From: Pseudosporangium ferrugineum
GTDB lineage: Bacteria > Actinomycetota > Actinomycetes > Mycobacteriales > Micromonosporaceae
Length of the DNA: 64,000 bases
Assembly: GCF_003002065.1 (NCBI RefSeq)
Contig: NZ_PVZG01000001.1
Span: forward strand, 806,001-870,000
Reading direction: 5' to 3'
Positions 3-6,116 of this stretch are shown here, one piece after another. A model generated the notes under the pieces. That model saw only the letters and a program-made list of their open reading frames with translations, made no database searches and was not told where the DNA came from. The position numbers and the translations under genes are program-made. How positions within the stretch are numbered: the stretch's first letter is position 1; each line of letters starts with the position of its first letter.

Positions 3-1541
3 GAGGGCGCCGGCTGGGCCGCCGACGACCTGCACCGCCTGGGCAAGCTGGGCGGCGGCGAGGAGGCGCAGCGCTGGGGCGACGAGGCCAACCGGCACGA
101 GCCGCGCCTGCTCACCCACGACCGGTACGGCCACCGCACCGACGAGGTCGACTTCCACCCGTCCTGGCACCGGCTGATGGACGTGGCCGTGGCCGAGGGG
201 CTGGCCGGCACCCCGTGGTCGGATCCGCGGCCGGGGGCGCACGTGGCACGGGCCGCCGGCCTGTTCGTGTGGGGGCAGGTGGAGGCCGGGCACACCTGTC
301 CGATCTCGATGACGTACGCGGTGCTGCCCGCCCTGCGGCACTCCCCCGAGCTGTCCGCCGCGTACGGGCCGCTGCTGGCGAGCCGCGCGTACGATCCGGG
401 GCTGCGCGCGCCGCAAACCAAGCGGGGACTGCTCGCCGGCATGGGCATGACCGAGAAGCAGGGCGGCTCCGACGTCCGCGCGAACTCGACCACCGCGACC
501 CCGGCCGGCGACGGCACCTACCGGCTGCGCGGCCACAAGTGGTTCACCAGCGCGCCGATGTGCGACCTGTTCCTGGTCCTCGCCCGGGCGCCGGCCGGCC
601 TGTCGTGCTTCCTGGTTCCGCGGGTGCTGCCCGACGGCAGCCGCAACACGTTCCGGATCCAGCGGCTCAAGGACAAGCTGGGCAACCGCAGCAACGCCAG
701 CAGCGAGCCGGAGTTCGAGGACACGGTGGCGTGGCCGGTCGGGGCCGAGGGCGACGGCATCCGCACGATCATCGACATGGTGGCGATGACCCGGCTGGAC
801 TGCGTGACCGGCTCGGCGTCCGGGATGCGGGCCGCGCTGGTGCAGGCCGTCCATCACGTACGGCACCGGTCGGCGTTCGGCGGCCCGCTGATCGGCAAGC
901 CGCTGATGCGCAACGTCTGCGCGGACCTGGCGGTGGAGACCGAGGCCGCGACGGCGCTGGCCCTGCGGCTGGCCGGGGCCGTCGACCGGGGCGTACGCGG
1001 GAACGCCGCCGAGCGCGCCTTCAGCCGGCTCGCCGTGCCGATCGGCAAGTTCTGGGTCTGCAAGCGCCAGCCGGCGGTGGTCGGCGAGGCCCTCGAGTGC
1101 CTCGGCGGCAACGGGTACGTCGAGGACTCCGGCCTGCCCCGGCTGTACCGCGACGCCCCGCTGAACTCGATCTGGGAGGGCTCGGGCAACGTCCAGGCCC
1201 TGGACGTGCTGCGGGCGCTGCGCCGCGACCCGGGCAGCCTCGACGCGTACCGGGCGGAGATCGACGCGGCGGCGGGCGCCGACCGCCGCCTGGACGAGGC
1301 GGCGGCCGGGCTGACCGCGCTGCTCGCCGCGGACGACCCGGAGCCGCAGGCGCGGCGCATCGTGGAGCGGATGGCACTGGTGTTGCAGGGCGCGCTGCTC
1401 GTGCGCCACGCTCCGCACGCGGTCGCCGACGCGTTCTGCGCGAGCCGCCTGGCCGGCGACTGGGGGCACACCTTCGGCACGCTGCCCGCCGGCGTCGACA
1501 CCGCCGCCCTGACCGACCGCGCGCTGCCCGCGGCCCGGTGA
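3..1541 (+). CDS. aidB: AidB-like acyl-CoA dehydrogenase, 5' end outside the window
   Basis: FAD-dependent acyl-CoA dehydrogenase of the AidB branch. E. coli AidB is an adaptive-response flavoprotein that binds DNA and is linked to alkylation damage; the physiological substrate of the family is unclear. The frame is open from base 3, so the first codons lie upstream of the window; 512 residues are visible. AidB-like signatures are a YGHRTDEVDFHPSWH segment near the start, MGMTEKQGGSDVR in the middle domain, and near the C-terminus a GGNGYVEDSG segment followed by RLYRDAPLNSIWEGSGN, which includes the dehydrogenase-family EGSGN signature. The next gene starts on the overlapping GTGA, so the two may be co-translated. 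An internal ATG at 177 would give a truncated product and is not the start. The family is secure, the role less so. Confidence 0.9.
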   Translation, partial: EGAGWAADDLHRLGKLGGGEEAQRWGDEANRHEPRLLTHDRYGHRTDEVDFHPSWHRLMDVAVAEGLAGTPWSDPRPGAHVARAAGLFVWGQVEAGHTCPISMTYAVLPALRHSPELSAAYGPLLASRAYDPGLRAPQTKRGLLAGMGMTEKQGGSDVRANSTTATPAGDGTYRLRGHKWFTSAPMCDLFLVLARAPAGLSCFLVPRVLPDGSRNTFRIQRLKDKLGNRSNASSEPEFEDTVAWPVGAEGDGIRTIIDMVAMTRLDCVTGSASGMRAALVQAVHHVRHRSAFGGPLIGKPLMRNVCADLAVETEAATALALRLAGAVDRGVRGNAAERAFSRLAVPIGKFWVCKRQPAVVGEALECLGGNGYVEDSGLPRLYRDAPLNSIWEGSGNVQALDVLRALRRDPGSLDAYRAEIDAAAGADRRLDEAAAGLTALLAADDPEPQARRIVERMALVLQGALLVRHAPHAVADAFCASRLAGDWGHTFGTLPAGVDTAALTDRALPAAR

Positions 1542-3817
1542 AGGTTCAGGTGTCGCGGATCACTGCCGATGGCGTGGGTGTGCGGAACCTACGGGGTGAC
1601 CGGGTGACGGTGGCGTGGCTGGCGGCGGGGCTGCTGGTCACCGTCGCGTACCCGCTGCTGGACGACGGCACCCCGGCCGCGGCGGTGCTCTACAACGGCT
1701 TCGAGGTCGCGACGCTGCTCGCGGTCCTGGCCGGCATCCGGCGCCGCCGGCCCGTGCACCGCACCGGCTGGTACGTCTTCGCCGCCGCCGTGCTGGTCCG
1801 GCTGGCCGGTGACATCACGTACGAGATCTACCGGCAGGTGCTGGACGAGCCGCCGTTCCCGTCCCTGGCCGACGTGTTCTACCTCGCCACCTGCCCGCTG
1901 CTGGCCGCCGGCGTCCTGCTGATCGCGCGGGGGCGGCTCGCCCGGGACCGGGCCGGCCTGCTCGACTCGGCCATCATCGCCACCGGGCTGGGGCTGGTGT
2001 GGTGGGTGTTCCTGGTGGGGCCGATCGCCGCCGACGCGTCCATCCCGGCGCTGGAGCGCCTGGTCGGGGCCGCCTACCCGGTGAGTGACCTGCTGCTGCT
2101 GGCGGTCGCCGTGCGCCTGCTGACCCGGTCGGGGCGCCCGACGCTCAGCCTGGCGCTGCTCACCGCGGGGGTGGCCGGCATGCTCGCGTCCGACGCGGCG
2201 TACCAGGTCGTGACGGCGTACGCGCCCGACCTGGAGGGCCCGATCGCGGTCGGCTGGATCCTCGCGAACGTCGCCTGGGGTGCCGCCGCGCTGCACCGTT
2301 CGGCCGGTGCCGCGGACCCGCCGGCCGGTCCCGCCGCCCCGCGCCTGGGCCGCGGCCGGCTGACCCTGCTGGCCGCCTGCACCCTGCTCGTGCCGGCGGC
2401 GCTGTTCGCCCAGGGCCTCACCGCCGGCGCCGCCGGGGTGGACTGGCCCGCCATCGGGGTCGGCGCGGTGCTGCTGTTCCTGTTCGTCCTCGCCCGCATG
2501 TCCGGCTTCGTGACGGAGGTGCAGCGCCAGGCGGGGCTGCTGGAGGAGCTGGCCCTGCGGGACGCGCTGACCGGCCTGCCGAACCGGCGGGTCTTCGAGG
2601 AGCGCCTCACCGCGGCGGTCGCCGCCGGTTCCGCCCAGGTGGCCATGCTCGACCTCAACGGCTTCAAGGACGTCAACGACCGGCTCGGCCACGCCGCCGG
2701 CGACCGCCTGCTCCAGACCGTCGCCGCGCGGCTGCAGGGCGCGCTGCGCGAGGGCGACCTGGTCGCGCGGATGGGCGGCGACGAGTTCGCCGTCCTGGTG
2801 CCGCACGCCACCCCGGCGGCCATGGACCAGGTCGTCGGCCGGGTGGTCGAGGCGCTGCGCGAGCCCGTCCGGGTCGACGGGCACGAGCTGCTCGTCGGCG
2901 CCAGCGTCGGCACCGCGGACGACGCCGGCACCACGGACGGCTACGAGGTCCTGCGCCGGGCGGACGTCGCCATGTACGCCGCGAAGCAGGCCGGCGAGCG
3001 CCACCGCCGGCACACCGCCGACCTGGACGTCCGCGCGGCCGACGAGGCGTGGCTGGGCGCGGAGCTGCGGACCGCGCTCGACACCGGCGGGCTGCACCTC
3101 GTCTATCAGCCGATCGTGTCCCTGCCCGACCACCGGATGGCCGCCGTCGAGGCGCTCGTGCGCTGGGATCATCCCGTACGCGGGCCGATCGCCCCGGCCG
3201 AGTTCCTGCCCGTCGCCGAACGCACGGGCCTCATGGTCGAGCTCGGCGCCTGGATCCTCGAGACGGCGTGCGCGCGCGCCGCGGAATGGCACCGCACCCT
3301 CGGCCCGGCCGCGCCCGCCCGCGTCAACGTCAACGTCTGCGCCCGCCAGCTCGCCGAGCCGGGCTTCCCCGAGCTGGTCACGACCACCCTCGCCCGGACC
3401 GGGCTGCCGATCCACCACCTGACCCTCGAGGTGAGCGAGACGGCGGTGCTGCGGGGCGGCCGGGTGGTGCGGACGCTGGAGCAGCTGCACGAGCTGGGCG
3501 TACCGATCGGGCTCGACGAGTTCGGCACCGGCCACTCGTCGCTGGGCGTCCTCGACCACGTGCCCGCCGACCTGCTCAAGATCGACCGCTCGTTCGTCGG
3601 CTCGATCACCCGGGCGGGCCGGCACGCCGTCATCGCCACCGCGCTGCTACAGGTGAGCGACGGGCTCGGCCTGACCGCCGTGGCCGAGGGCGTGCAGACT
3701 GCCGAACAGGCCGCCGAGCTGCACCGGCTCGGATACCGCTACGCGCAGGGCGACTACTTCGGTACGCCCCTCGCCGTCCCCGGCTTCGCCCGTAGCGATG
3801 TGGCCGCGATCTCCTGA
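1538..3817 (+). CDS. Membrane GGDEF-EAL protein (first of tandem pair), altered EAL site
   Basis: Predicted cyclic-di-GMP enzyme. About nine hydrophobic helices fill the first ~320 residues, then a GGDEF domain (GGDEF at about 413-417) and an EAL domain (EAL at about 538-540). An RxxD product-inhibition site (R404-D407) lies five residues before GGDEF, so the cyclase looks active and feedback-controlled. In the EAL domain the usual DDFG is DEFG (D660-E661): the second metal-site aspartate is glutamate. The LKID lysine, the AEGV glutamate and the later glutamine are kept. The start is taken as GTG 1538, overlapping the aidB stop; GTG at 1550 or about 1603 is possible and no good ribosome site favours one. 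The length is about 759 residues. The next gene is a paralogue of the same architecture. Confidence 0.85.
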   Translation: MKVQVSRITADGVGVRNLRGDRVTVAWLAAGLLVTVAYPLLDDGTPAAAVLYNGFEVATLLAVLAGIRRRRPVHRTGWYVFAAAVLVRLAGDITYEIYRQVLDEPPFPSLADVFYLATCPLLAAGVLLIARGRLARDRAGLLDSAIIATGLGLVWWVFLVGPIAADASIPALERLVGAAYPVSDLLLLAVAVRLLTRSGRPTLSLALLTAGVAGMLASDAAYQVVTAYAPDLEGPIAVGWILANVAWGAAALHRSAGAADPPAGPAAPRLGRGRLTLLAACTLLVPAALFAQGLTAGAAGVDWPAIGVGAVLLFLFVLARMSGFVTEVQRQAGLLEELALRDALTGLPNRRVFEERLTAAVAAGSAQVAMLDLNGFKDVNDRLGHAAGDRLLQTVAARLQGALREGDLVARMGGDEFAVLVPHATPAAMDQVVGRVVEALREPVRVDGHELLVGASVGTADDAGTTDGYEVLRRADVAMYAAKQAGERHRRHTADLDVRAADEAWLGAELRTALDTGGLHLVYQPIVSLPDHRMAAVEALVRWDHPVRGPIAPAEFLPVAERTGLMVELGAWILETACARAAEWHRTLGPAAPARVNVNVCARQLAEPGFPELVTTTLARTGLPIHHLTLEVSETAVLRGGRVVRTLEQLHELGVPIGLDEFGTGHSSLGVLDHVPADLLKIDRSFVGSITRAGRHAVIATALLQVSDGLGLTAVAEGVQTAEQAAELHRLGYRYAQGDYFGTPLAVPGFARSDVAAIS

Positions 3818-6116
3818 GCGGGCGGACACCTCAGCTGGGTCCCGCCGCCGCCGATGTCAGGACGTGCGGGGAGAGCGGTTCTGGTGGTGGTGGGTAGCGG
3901 CGGGGTCGCTGGCCACGGCCGCCTACTTCCTGCTGCCGGACGAGGGCCTCGTCTCGAACCTCGTGTACGACGCGATCGGGCTGGTCTCCACCGTCATGAT
4001 CATCGTCGGCGTACGGCTGCACCGGGCCGGCCGCCGCGCCATGTGGTACTGGTTCGCCGCCGGCCAGCTCACCTGGGTCCTGGGCGACCTCGTGTGGGAG
4101 TACTACAAGTACGTCCTGGACCAGGAGCCGTACCCGTCCCCGGCGGACGTCCTGTACCTGAGCGCGTACCCGTTCTTCGTGGCCGGGATGATCATGCTGA
4201 TGCGCGGCCGCGGCGCCCGGGACCGCGACCTGGCCGCCCTCATCGACGCGTCCATCGTCGCGATCGGCCTCGGCCTGGTCTTCTGGGTCTTCGTGATGCA
4301 CCCCATCGCCGCCGACTCGACCGCCTCGACCCTCGAGCGGGTGATCGGCGTCGCGTACCCGGCGGCCGACGCGCTGCTGCTCGCCATGCTGGCCCGCTTC
4401 TACACCGGCGTCGTCCGGCGCTCGACCAGCATCCGGCTGCTCGGCGCCGCCGCGGTGCTCCTGCTCGTGGCCGACGTCTGCTACTCGCTCATCTCGCTCT
4501 ACTCGGACGTGAACGCCCGGTTCCTGGACGCCGGCTGGCTGCTGTCGTACGTCTGCTGGGGCGCCGCGGCGCTGCACCCGTCGATGCGCGTCGCCGGAAC
4601 GGCCCGCCGGCAGGCCCGTGACGCCCGGGTGGGCCGGGCCCGGCTGCTGCTGCTCGCCGTCTGCTCGCTGCTCGCCCCGGGCCTGCTGTTCCTGCCCGGC
4701 AGCGGCGACCACGTCGACCGGCTGGTCATCGCCGCCGGCGCGGTGCTGCTCTTCCTGCTGGTCGTGGTCCGCATGTCCGGCTTCGTCGGCCAGGTGCAGC
4801 GGCAGGCCGACCAGCTCGAGGACCTGGCGATGGCCGACGACCTCACCGGCCTGGCGAACCGGCGCCGCTTCGAGCGCGACCTGCGGACCGCCCTGGCCGC
4901 CGGGCGCACCCAGGTGGCGCTGCTCGACCTCGACGACTTCAAGGGCGTCAACGACCGGCTCGGCCACGGCGTCGGCGACCGCCTGCTCACCGTGGCCGGC
5001 CAGCGGCTGCGCGCGGCGCTGCCGCCGGAGGTGCTCGTCGCCCGGATGGGCGGGGACGAGTTCGCCGTCCTCCTGCCCGGGGCGACCGGCGCGGAGGCGG
5101 ACCGGGCCGTGGCGCGGCTCGCCGACGCCCTGCGCGAACCCATCGTCGCCGGCGACCACGAGCTGCTCGTGAGCGCCAGCATCGGCGTCGCGGACGGTGC
5201 CGGCACGGCGGACCCGTACGAGGTGCTGCGCCGCGCCGACGTCGCCATGTACGCCGCCAAGGCCGCCGCCGCGGACCGCCCCCGCCGCTACGCCGCCGAC
5301 CTCGACGAGCAGTCCGACGAGCAGGCCCGGGTCGGCGCGGAGCTGCGGACGGCCCTGGACACCGGCCAGTTCCGCGTCGTCTATCAGCCGATCGTGGCGC
5401 TGCCGTCCGGGCGCCCGGTCGCCGTCGAGGCCCTGGTCCGCTGGGCCCACCCGGAACGCGGCACGGTGCCCCCGGACCACTTCATCCCGGCCGCCGAACG
5501 CAACGGCCTGATCGTCGAGCTGGGCGAGTGGATCCTGCGGACGGCCTGCGCCCAGGCGATGGAGTGGCAGGCCGCGTACGGCGACCTGGCGCCGGCCCGG
5601 ATGAGCGTCAACGTCTCCGCCCGCCAGCTCGCCGAGCCCGGCTTCGCCGCCCTGGTGGCGGCGGTCCTCGACGAGACCGGCCTGCCCGCCGGCCGCCTGA
5701 CGGTCGAGGTCACCGAGACCGCCGTCTTCGGCGGCGGCCAGGCCGTGCAGTCGGTGCAGGACCTGCACGACCTCGGCGTCCACATCGCCCTGGACGACTT
5801 CGGCACCGGCCACTCCTCCCTCGGCCTGCTCCAGACGGTCCCGGTCGACGTCCTCAAGGTCGACAAGTCCTTCGTCGACTCCATCACGATGGCCGGCCGG
5901 CACGCGGTGATCGCGACCGCGCTGATCCAGGTGAGCGCGGGCCTGGGCCTCACGGCGGTGGCCGAGGGCGTGGAGACCGCGGAACAGGCGGCGGAGCTGC
6001 ACCGGCTCGGCTACGAGCTGGCCCAGGGCTACCACTTCGGCCGCCCCTCCCCCGAGCCGTCCTTCCTCACCCCCGGTCCGTCGCCGGCCGCCGCGGTCCA
6101 CGTTCAGAGCAGGTGA
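3798..6116 (+). CDS. Membrane GGDEF-EAL protein (second of tandem pair), no I-site
   Basis: Paralogue of the upstream gene with the same order: a multi-helix membrane region, GGDEF (418-422), then EAL (544-546). All the EAL metal and catalytic positions I could check are intact, including D666-D667 in DDFGTG, the LKVD lysine and AEGVET. The residues five before GGDEF are PPEV instead of RxxD, so the allosteric inhibition site seen in the neighbour is missing. It is predicted to make and/or degrade cyclic-di-GMP at the membrane. ATG 3798 gives 772 residues and overlaps the upstream gene by 20 bases; GTG 3864, just before the first hydrophobic helix, is an equally reasonable start. The 3' end overlaps the convergent acyl-CoA dehydrogenase by 13 bases. 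Confidence 0.87.
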   Translation: MWPRSPERADTSAGSRRRRCQDVRGERFWWWWVAAGSLATAAYFLLPDEGLVSNLVYDAIGLVSTVMIIVGVRLHRAGRRAMWYWFAAGQLTWVLGDLVWEYYKYVLDQEPYPSPADVLYLSAYPFFVAGMIMLMRGRGARDRDLAALIDASIVAIGLGLVFWVFVMHPIAADSTASTLERVIGVAYPAADALLLAMLARFYTGVVRRSTSIRLLGAAAVLLLVADVCYSLISLYSDVNARFLDAGWLLSYVCWGAAALHPSMRVAGTARRQARDARVGRARLLLLAVCSLLAPGLLFLPGSGDHVDRLVIAAGAVLLFLLVVVRMSGFVGQVQRQADQLEDLAMADDLTGLANRRRFERDLRTALAAGRTQVALLDLDDFKGVNDRLGHGVGDRLLTVAGQRLRAALPPEVLVARMGGDEFAVLLPGATGAEADRAVARLADALREPIVAGDHELLVSASIGVADGAGTADPYEVLRRADVAMYAAKAAAADRPRRYAADLDEQSDEQARVGAELRTALDTGQFRVVYQPIVALPSGRPVAVEALVRWAHPERGTVPPDHFIPAAERNGLIVELGEWILRTACAQAMEWQAAYGDLAPARMSVNVSARQLAEPGFAALVAAVLDETGLPAGRLTVEVTETAVFGGGQAVQSVQDLHDLGVHIALDDFGTGHSSLGLLQTVPVDVLKVDKSFVDSITMAGRHAVIATALIQVSAGLGLTAVAEGVETAEQAAELHRLGYELAQGYHFGRPSPEPSFLTPGPSPAAAVHVQSR

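Follow-up and report, generated by a model that had tools for sequence, protein, structure and literature searches.

Proteins that join a GGDEF to an EAL domain hold two opposite activities, the making and the breaking of cyclic dimeric guanosine monophosphate (c-di-GMP), within a single chain, and how such a protein comes to settle on one of them is an old question. It is raised in compact form by two neighbouring genes near the start of a 64,000-nucleotide stretch of the Pseudosporangium ferrugineum genome (contig NZ_PVZG01000001.1 of assembly GCF_003002065.1, positions 806,001 to 870,000 of the forward strand; hereafter the window), which encode, both on the plus strand as are all features given below, membrane GGDEF-EAL proteins of 759 amino acids (copy A, 1538..3817) and 772 amino acids (copy B, 3798..6116). 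An earlier note on this DNA, made from its letters, saw in the pair a duplication followed by reciprocal decay, the one copy becoming mainly a feedback-limited cyclase and the other mainly a phosphodiesterase or an uninhibited cyclase. The reading favoured here, which we hold to be fairly probable on the sequence comparisons set out below, is that A and B are sister copies of long standing, of which B would be the one that is kept and leans towards phosphodiesterase activity, and A would be dispensable, feedback-limited and, in this species, endowed with a changing EAL domain. In other words, the asymmetry between the two copies would be stepwise and one-sided, not reciprocal.

Motif residues of the two copies

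A and B are 56% identical over 742 aligned columns, and each has an N-terminal membrane part followed by one GGDEF and one EAL domain. The GGDEF domains (A, 2552..3001, residues 339-488; B, 4827..5273, residues 344-492) score 138.5 and 124.7 bits, respectively, against Pfam PF00990, for which the cut-off is 23.8, and the EAL domains (A, 3062..3769, residues 509-744; B, 5340..6047, residues 515-750) score 206.5 and 233.4 bits against PF00563, with a cut-off of 31.3. The catalytic GGDEF motif is intact in both proteins and the metal-binding Asp (DLNGF/DLDDF) is also present, such that both belong to the GGDEF family; a Pfam search of A gave no domain beyond GGDEF and EAL. Names from NCBIfam (DibA and others) were considered for both copies and set aside, since the whole-protein models shown score far below their cut-offs and only the GGDEF domain model passes.

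Where the copies differ, the letters are as the earlier note had read them. Five residues before its GGDEF motif, A has an RxxD I-site, the site of feedback inhibition, in the form REGD (R404-D407, 2747..2758), and the same position in B is occupied by PPEV (5022..5033), which is not an I-site. The EAL signature is taken here as a set of ten residues, namely the Glu of EAL, an Asn, both Glu of ExxE, both Asp of DDFG, a Lys, both Glu of EGVE and a Gln. All ten are present in B, with an intact DDFG at 5793..5804, so that the earlier claim of complete EAL residues for this copy is correct at the positions tabulated. A lacks the full signature, in that Glu stands for the second Asp of DDFG (D660 and E661 of DEFG, 3515..3520, with E661 at 3518..3520) and Gln for the second Glu of EGVE (Q720, 3695..3697, giving EGVQT for EGVET). 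Moreover, Asp stands for Tyr in the sequence QGDYF, where QGYxF is usual (D739, 3752..3754). The EGVQT and QGD changes had escaped the earlier note. The absence of RxxD is in itself common, as a loose motif search over 60 loci of the same genome finds an RxxD with 16 of 27 GGDEF motifs.

Orthologous pairs and the age of the split

It had been proposed in the earlier note that orthologous pairs should keep these differences. Among 67 genomes of the genus, which were searched both for pairs and for the DEFG and DDFG patterns, at least ten, P. ferrugineum included, carry A and B side by side and in the same direction. Within these pairs the difference in the I-site stands, all ten A copies having RxxD and none of the ten B copies. 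The difference in DDFG does not, since every B copy and nine of the ten A copies carry the motif, and the lone DEFG is that of the window. In the other nine pairs A has both the full EAL signature and RxxD, and half of the claim accordingly fails by its own test. Across the same 67 whole genomes there is 1 DEFG site against 1,692 DDFG sites in the EAL loop, the pattern being one that detects the FGTG form of the domain only (26 DDFG and 1 DEFG as against 44 EAL matches in the P. ferrugineum genome, where the nearest further copy, on contig 19, is 51% identical to A and 65% to B).

A wider family set comprises 143 proteins among the matches listed, weaker matches lying outside it: 59 of A type, 72 of B type and 12 relatives that branch below the split between the two. 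It consists of a 122-row set, without four outgroups from the P. ferrugineum genome and two distant relatives and with the fragment L209 dropped, together with 21 added rows whose clade was taken from a quick tree. RxxD occurs in 28 of the 59 A-type proteins, in none of the 72 B-type proteins and in 10 of the 12 below the split, for which the simplest explanation is that B lost RxxD once, early, at or near its stem. The second Asp of DDFG is changed in 1 of 143 proteins and the second Glu of EGVE likewise in 1 of 143, and in both cases this is the A copy of P. ferrugineum. DEFG is private to this species, which is represented by one genome. As for B, every one of its 72 proteins retains all ten residues of the EAL signature. 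The GGDEF metal-binding Asp has gone from 47 of these 72 (for example at loci L113, L123 and L141) as against 0 of 59 A-type proteins, and the GGDEF motif is altered in 12 of the first 68 B-type proteins, the EAL signature being intact. Within the B clade, loss of the cyclase appears to have come after loss of the inhibition site.

In a tree of 93 proteins (35 of 128 rows were left out, of which 32 are of B type and were placed by other comparisons and three are distant) A and B form sister clades, with supports of 100/100 for A, 98/96 for B and 99/97 for the two together. Single copies from other genera branch below the split, and a few copies from other genera lie inside the A clade. That A and B are duplicates, as the earlier note had it, is borne out by this topology, and a recent tandem duplication is ruled out, the A and B copies falling in separate clades. 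With the split at the base of a genus-level family, the duplication is older than the species; it appears to lie near the base of the Actinoplanes-type genus and to be about as old as that genus. The part of the earlier proposal which gives way is reciprocal decay as a single event of duplication followed by specialisation, for the split is old, the loss of RxxD lies near the B stem and DEFG is found in one species. Matches to A at E ≤ 1e-200 were found in 67 of 250 sampled genomes of the family, and in 5 of 44 genera.

Gene order bears on what became of A after the duplication. In the window, the GTG start of A overlaps the stop codon of an aidB-type gene (3..1541, this being its 3′ part), and B, counted from its first ATG, shares 20 nt with the end of A. 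Genes of this name are of the alkylation-response type. In the ten pairs, aidB stands directly before A in seven, is 0.9 and 3.4 kb off in two and was not found in the stretch examined in one; it also stands directly before A in 5 of 5 loci where B is 33-44 kb away. Where there is a B but no adjoining A, aidB lies directly before B in 6 of 6 loci, with some 45 to 155 nt from the aidB stop to the aligned match (the ends of aidB at L095 and L098 being taken from match ends and reading frames). The simplest ancestral order is aidB-A-B. On at least three occasions a locus with B only belongs to the sister of a species that has the pair (G010 and G022; G035; and G017, which has an A-type copy elsewhere). 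With aidB immediately ahead of B in three or more lineages, A would seem to have dropped out of the locus repeatedly.

Some further observations on these loci may be recorded here. Proximity to aidB is the rule for these c-di-GMP genes, with 9 of the 10 pairs, and all 11 of the single-copy loci that were examined, having it no more than 3.5 kb away. The A and B copies that are 33-44 kb apart are those of G028 (L128/L115), G007 (L134/L162), G038 (L140/L130), G042 (L174/L133) and G055 (L180/L113), and in G018 (L129) an A-type and a B-type copy are 0.9 kb apart and face opposite directions.

The EAL domain of copy A

Among EAL columns with a conservation of 97% or more, the A copy of P. ferrugineum departs from consensus at 8 and its two nearest A orthologues at 4 and 4, which ranks these three proteins highest in the 122-row set (80 columns, with a mean of 0.43) and again in the 143-row set (81 columns, with a mean of 0.50). 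The B partners of this three-species A group, which has a support of 100/99, show 0, 0 and 0 EAL departures, and the GGDEF domains of the three A copies themselves depart at 0 of 25 columns. With the consensus recalculated leaving out each small clade, the three-species group is the highest of 85 overlapping clades.

The same contrast is found in rates. In relative-rate tests with one outgroup, in which the three A copies were set against six other pairs, the EAL domain is faster in 18 of 18 comparisons (p 1.5e-08 to 0.0066), whereas at p < 0.05 the GGDEF domain of A is faster in 1 of 18 and its membrane part in none; the EAL domain of B is likewise never faster at this level (0 of 18). Against four other outgroups, all 12 tests again have the EAL domain of P. 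ferrugineum A as the faster one (p ≤ 0.013). On a fixed tree, the branch lengths of the three-species A group come to 1.15 for EAL, 0.40 for GGDEF and 0.74 for the membrane part, as compared with 0.40, 0.42 and 0.54 for the B copies of the same genomes, and omission of residues 661, 720 and 734 leaves the EAL value at 1.131, against 1.153 with all residues. The EAL domain of A, in other words, diverges in a way of its own, by an acceleration of this domain only in the three-species group. These comparisons place the start of the change in EAL before P. ferrugineum; DEFG and EGVQ are its own.

Two further origins of the unusual residues were considered. Gene conversion of the EAL domain of A, with B or some other paralogue as donor, is not supported, since the nearest EAL domain in its own genome is that of B, at 68% identity (this comparison covered 60 loci, among which not all of the 44 EAL matches are found); in other pairs the A and B domains are 79% (G058), 78% (G012), 81% (G023) and 75% (G004) identical, and in the sister species G006 69%. 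Sequencing error behind DEFG and EGVQ is unlikely, given that two active-site codons are changed and that the EAL-wide acceleration is common to two sister species, although the residues themselves are read from the one genome. Elsewhere in the genus, EAL domains do seem to have been exchanged within genomes. The A copy of G023 (L092) and a distant A-type protein (L143) are 94.5% identical in EAL and 42.5% in their membrane residues, the last 90 codons of the A copy of G004 (L095) and of L154 are 98-100% identical as DNA, with 62% in the membrane part, and a tree of EAL alone groups L092 with L143 and L095 with L154.

Reading of the pair and its setting

A course of events that would join these results begins with an ancestral membrane-anchored GGDEF-EAL protein, making and breaking c-di-GMP, which was duplicated to give the order aidB-A-B. 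The stem of B would have lost the RxxD product-inhibition site early and retained the EAL signature, leaving B as the core copy. That B leans towards phosphodiesterase activity is suggested by the EAL signature kept in all 72 B-type proteins while 47 of them have lost the GGDEF metal-binding Asp; the earlier wording for B, a phosphodiesterase or an uninhibited cyclase, is compatible with its sequence. A would have continued as a feedback-limited, dispensable cyclase/phosphodiesterase until, in the three-species lineage, its EAL domain alone sped up and, in P. ferrugineum, the change reached the active site as DEFG, EGVQ and QGD. In this regard, the EAL structure of PA3825 has both Asp of DDFGTG binding catalytic metals, according to its description in PMC5301497, and D295 and D296 of RocR are given as metal ligands (PMC7911125); from the motif, the altered second Asp of A would match RocR D296. 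The three closest solved EAL domains among the matches listed have DDFG and EGxE at these positions. Glu at the second Asp, as an altered second metal-binding carboxylate, would together with the Gln of EGVQ lower hydrolysis. P. ferrugineum A has probably lost most of its phosphodiesterase activity and may now be mainly a feedback-limited cyclase or a c-di-GMP binder, ‘mainly a cyclase’ being a prediction limited to this species.

Several points weigh against this reading. A retains eight of the ten signature residues (the EAL Glu, the Asn, both ExxE Glu, the first Asp of DDFG, the Lys, the Gln and E717, the first Glu of EGVQ), and the first Glu of an EGVE-type motif is described as the catalytic base (PMC12900916). 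The exchange of Asp for Glu in DEFG still leaves a carboxylate, and no DEFG mutant with a measured activity came to light. RxxD does not define A, as 31 of the 59 proteins of this type are without it, and four B-type proteins keep its Arg (RGDI, RGDI, RPDA and RDAA), such that B may have lost the site in steps. In EAL excess the stem of the three-species A group (0.377) is second to a pair of another genus (0.436), with further branches at 0.35 and 0.29; as the rest of these keep the signature, bursts in EAL evidently occur elsewhere in the family without its loss. The relative-rate tests, with lineages in common, are not independent of one another, an aidB tree puts P. ferrugineum elsewhere, if with weak support (82), and the repeated loss of A is read from gene order and the tree, not from gene remnants.

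What else could account for the pair is best judged against the same evidence. Reciprocal specialisation, in which one duplication would have sent A towards cyclase and B towards phosphodiesterase activity by complementary losses, draws on differences that are both real in P. ferrugineum and on the acceleration of A's EAL domain. With DEFG in 1 of 10 A copies and RxxD absent from 10 of 10 B copies, however, the events lie far apart on the tree, and as a conserved feature of the pairs this scheme is already refuted; taken as a whole it is most improbable. The opposite view, that DEFG, EGVQ and QGD are near-neutral and that A remains an active phosphodiesterase in a pair of two bifunctional enzymes, has in its favour that each change is one base from a usual codon, that the position of the QGY Tyr holds Asn and His in the two nearest A orthologues and that a carboxylate is kept at DEFG. 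Yet none of the other 142 proteins in the set of 143 has a change at the second Asp, and 1,692 DDFG sites stand against 1 DEFG, which leaves near-neutrality decidedly unlikely.

The kept residues may also be taken to mean that selection on the EAL domain of A was changed and not relaxed, the domain gaining a new role as c-di-GMP receptor or as regulator of its own cyclase or of B. The reading frame is open, 72 of 80 conserved EAL columns are unchanged and the first Glu of EGVE is kept, and inactive GGDEF and EAL domains are described as having often become receptors (PMC10333796). The same data, however, agree with plain relaxation on the way to loss, the outcome in genomes that have no A, and a new role appears unlikely. 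A bolder version, in which A and B form one hetero-oligomeric membrane c-di-GMP switch tied to aidB, with B as standing phosphodiesterase and A, through its I-site and an EAL domain turning into a c-di-GMP sensor, setting the level, must be counted as highly unlikely; were it true, P. ferrugineum would represent a halfway stage between EAL enzyme and receptor, and its sister species would hold intermediates that are still intact.

Under the favoured reading of one-sided, stepwise divergence, the tree orders the steps. First would come, in B, the loss of the inhibition site; then, among some members of the B clade, that of the cyclase metal site; and at the end a change in the phosphodiesterase site, in one A lineage. 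The locus also offers natural variants graded for assay, with 8 departures in P. ferrugineum A, 4 and 4 in its sisters and 0 in B. The chemistry is already known; the value lies in the ordered series, a stepwise and one-sided divergence in a known kind of enzyme.

Both end states have precedents in actinobacteria, in the cyclase CdgC and the phosphodiesterase RmdB of Streptomyces (PMC6205966, PMC7911125). As described there, CdgC, with nine transmembrane helices followed by PAS, GGDEF and EAL domains, is an active cyclase and resembles A as an actinobacterial membrane protein with intact GGDEF and altered EAL; it differs, by the same descriptions, in having a PAS domain and in missing all key EAL residues, where A, in the motifs examined, is altered at three positions. 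RmdB, with six transmembrane helices followed by GGDEF and EAL, has a conserved EAL domain and is a phosphodiesterase, as is proposed for B; its six annotated helices compare with ten modelled for A, and the likeness is one of description. Highly homologous GGDEF-EAL paralogues of differing activity, one a cyclase with a degenerate EAL loop 6, are described for Komagataeibacter xylinus (PMC10333796). In Actinoplanes sp. SE50/110, whose genome is given as encoding 48 GGDEF-EAL proteins, the membrane GGDEF-EAL protein ACSP50_2473 is reported from the amlE-amlR operon, not beside aidB (PMC6828939). Narrow literature queries gave no paper, either for a tandem GGDEF-EAL duplication with the I-site (all terms being required) or for gene conversion with GGDEF or EAL.

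The membrane domain of A (1538..2527) has ten predicted helices, with a mean predicted local distance difference test score of 84.8 in the AlphaFold2 model. It has no Pfam match, and a Foldseek search with the model gave no match at E ≤ 0.001. A second structure comparison aligned helices 2-8 with seven-helix bundles like those of G protein-coupled receptors (GPCRs) and rhodopsins, at Z up to 11.2 (root-mean-square deviation 3.5, 181 residues aligned); since for helical bundles the tool itself advises caution below about 13, no claim as to fold is made, and the likeness to GPCR and rhodopsin may be only one of common arrangement. By reading, the eighth helix (residues 230-252) has no Lys for retinal.

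The aidB-type gene upstream of A, whose 5′ end lies upstream of the window, encodes an acyl-CoA dehydrogenase. Taken as the whole open reading frame at its genomic locus (L099), it matches Pfam AidB_N (PF18158) at E = 1.2e-56, and it scores 548.3 bits with the NCBIfam model NF008594 (isovaleryl-CoA dehydrogenase), barely over the cut-off of 545.

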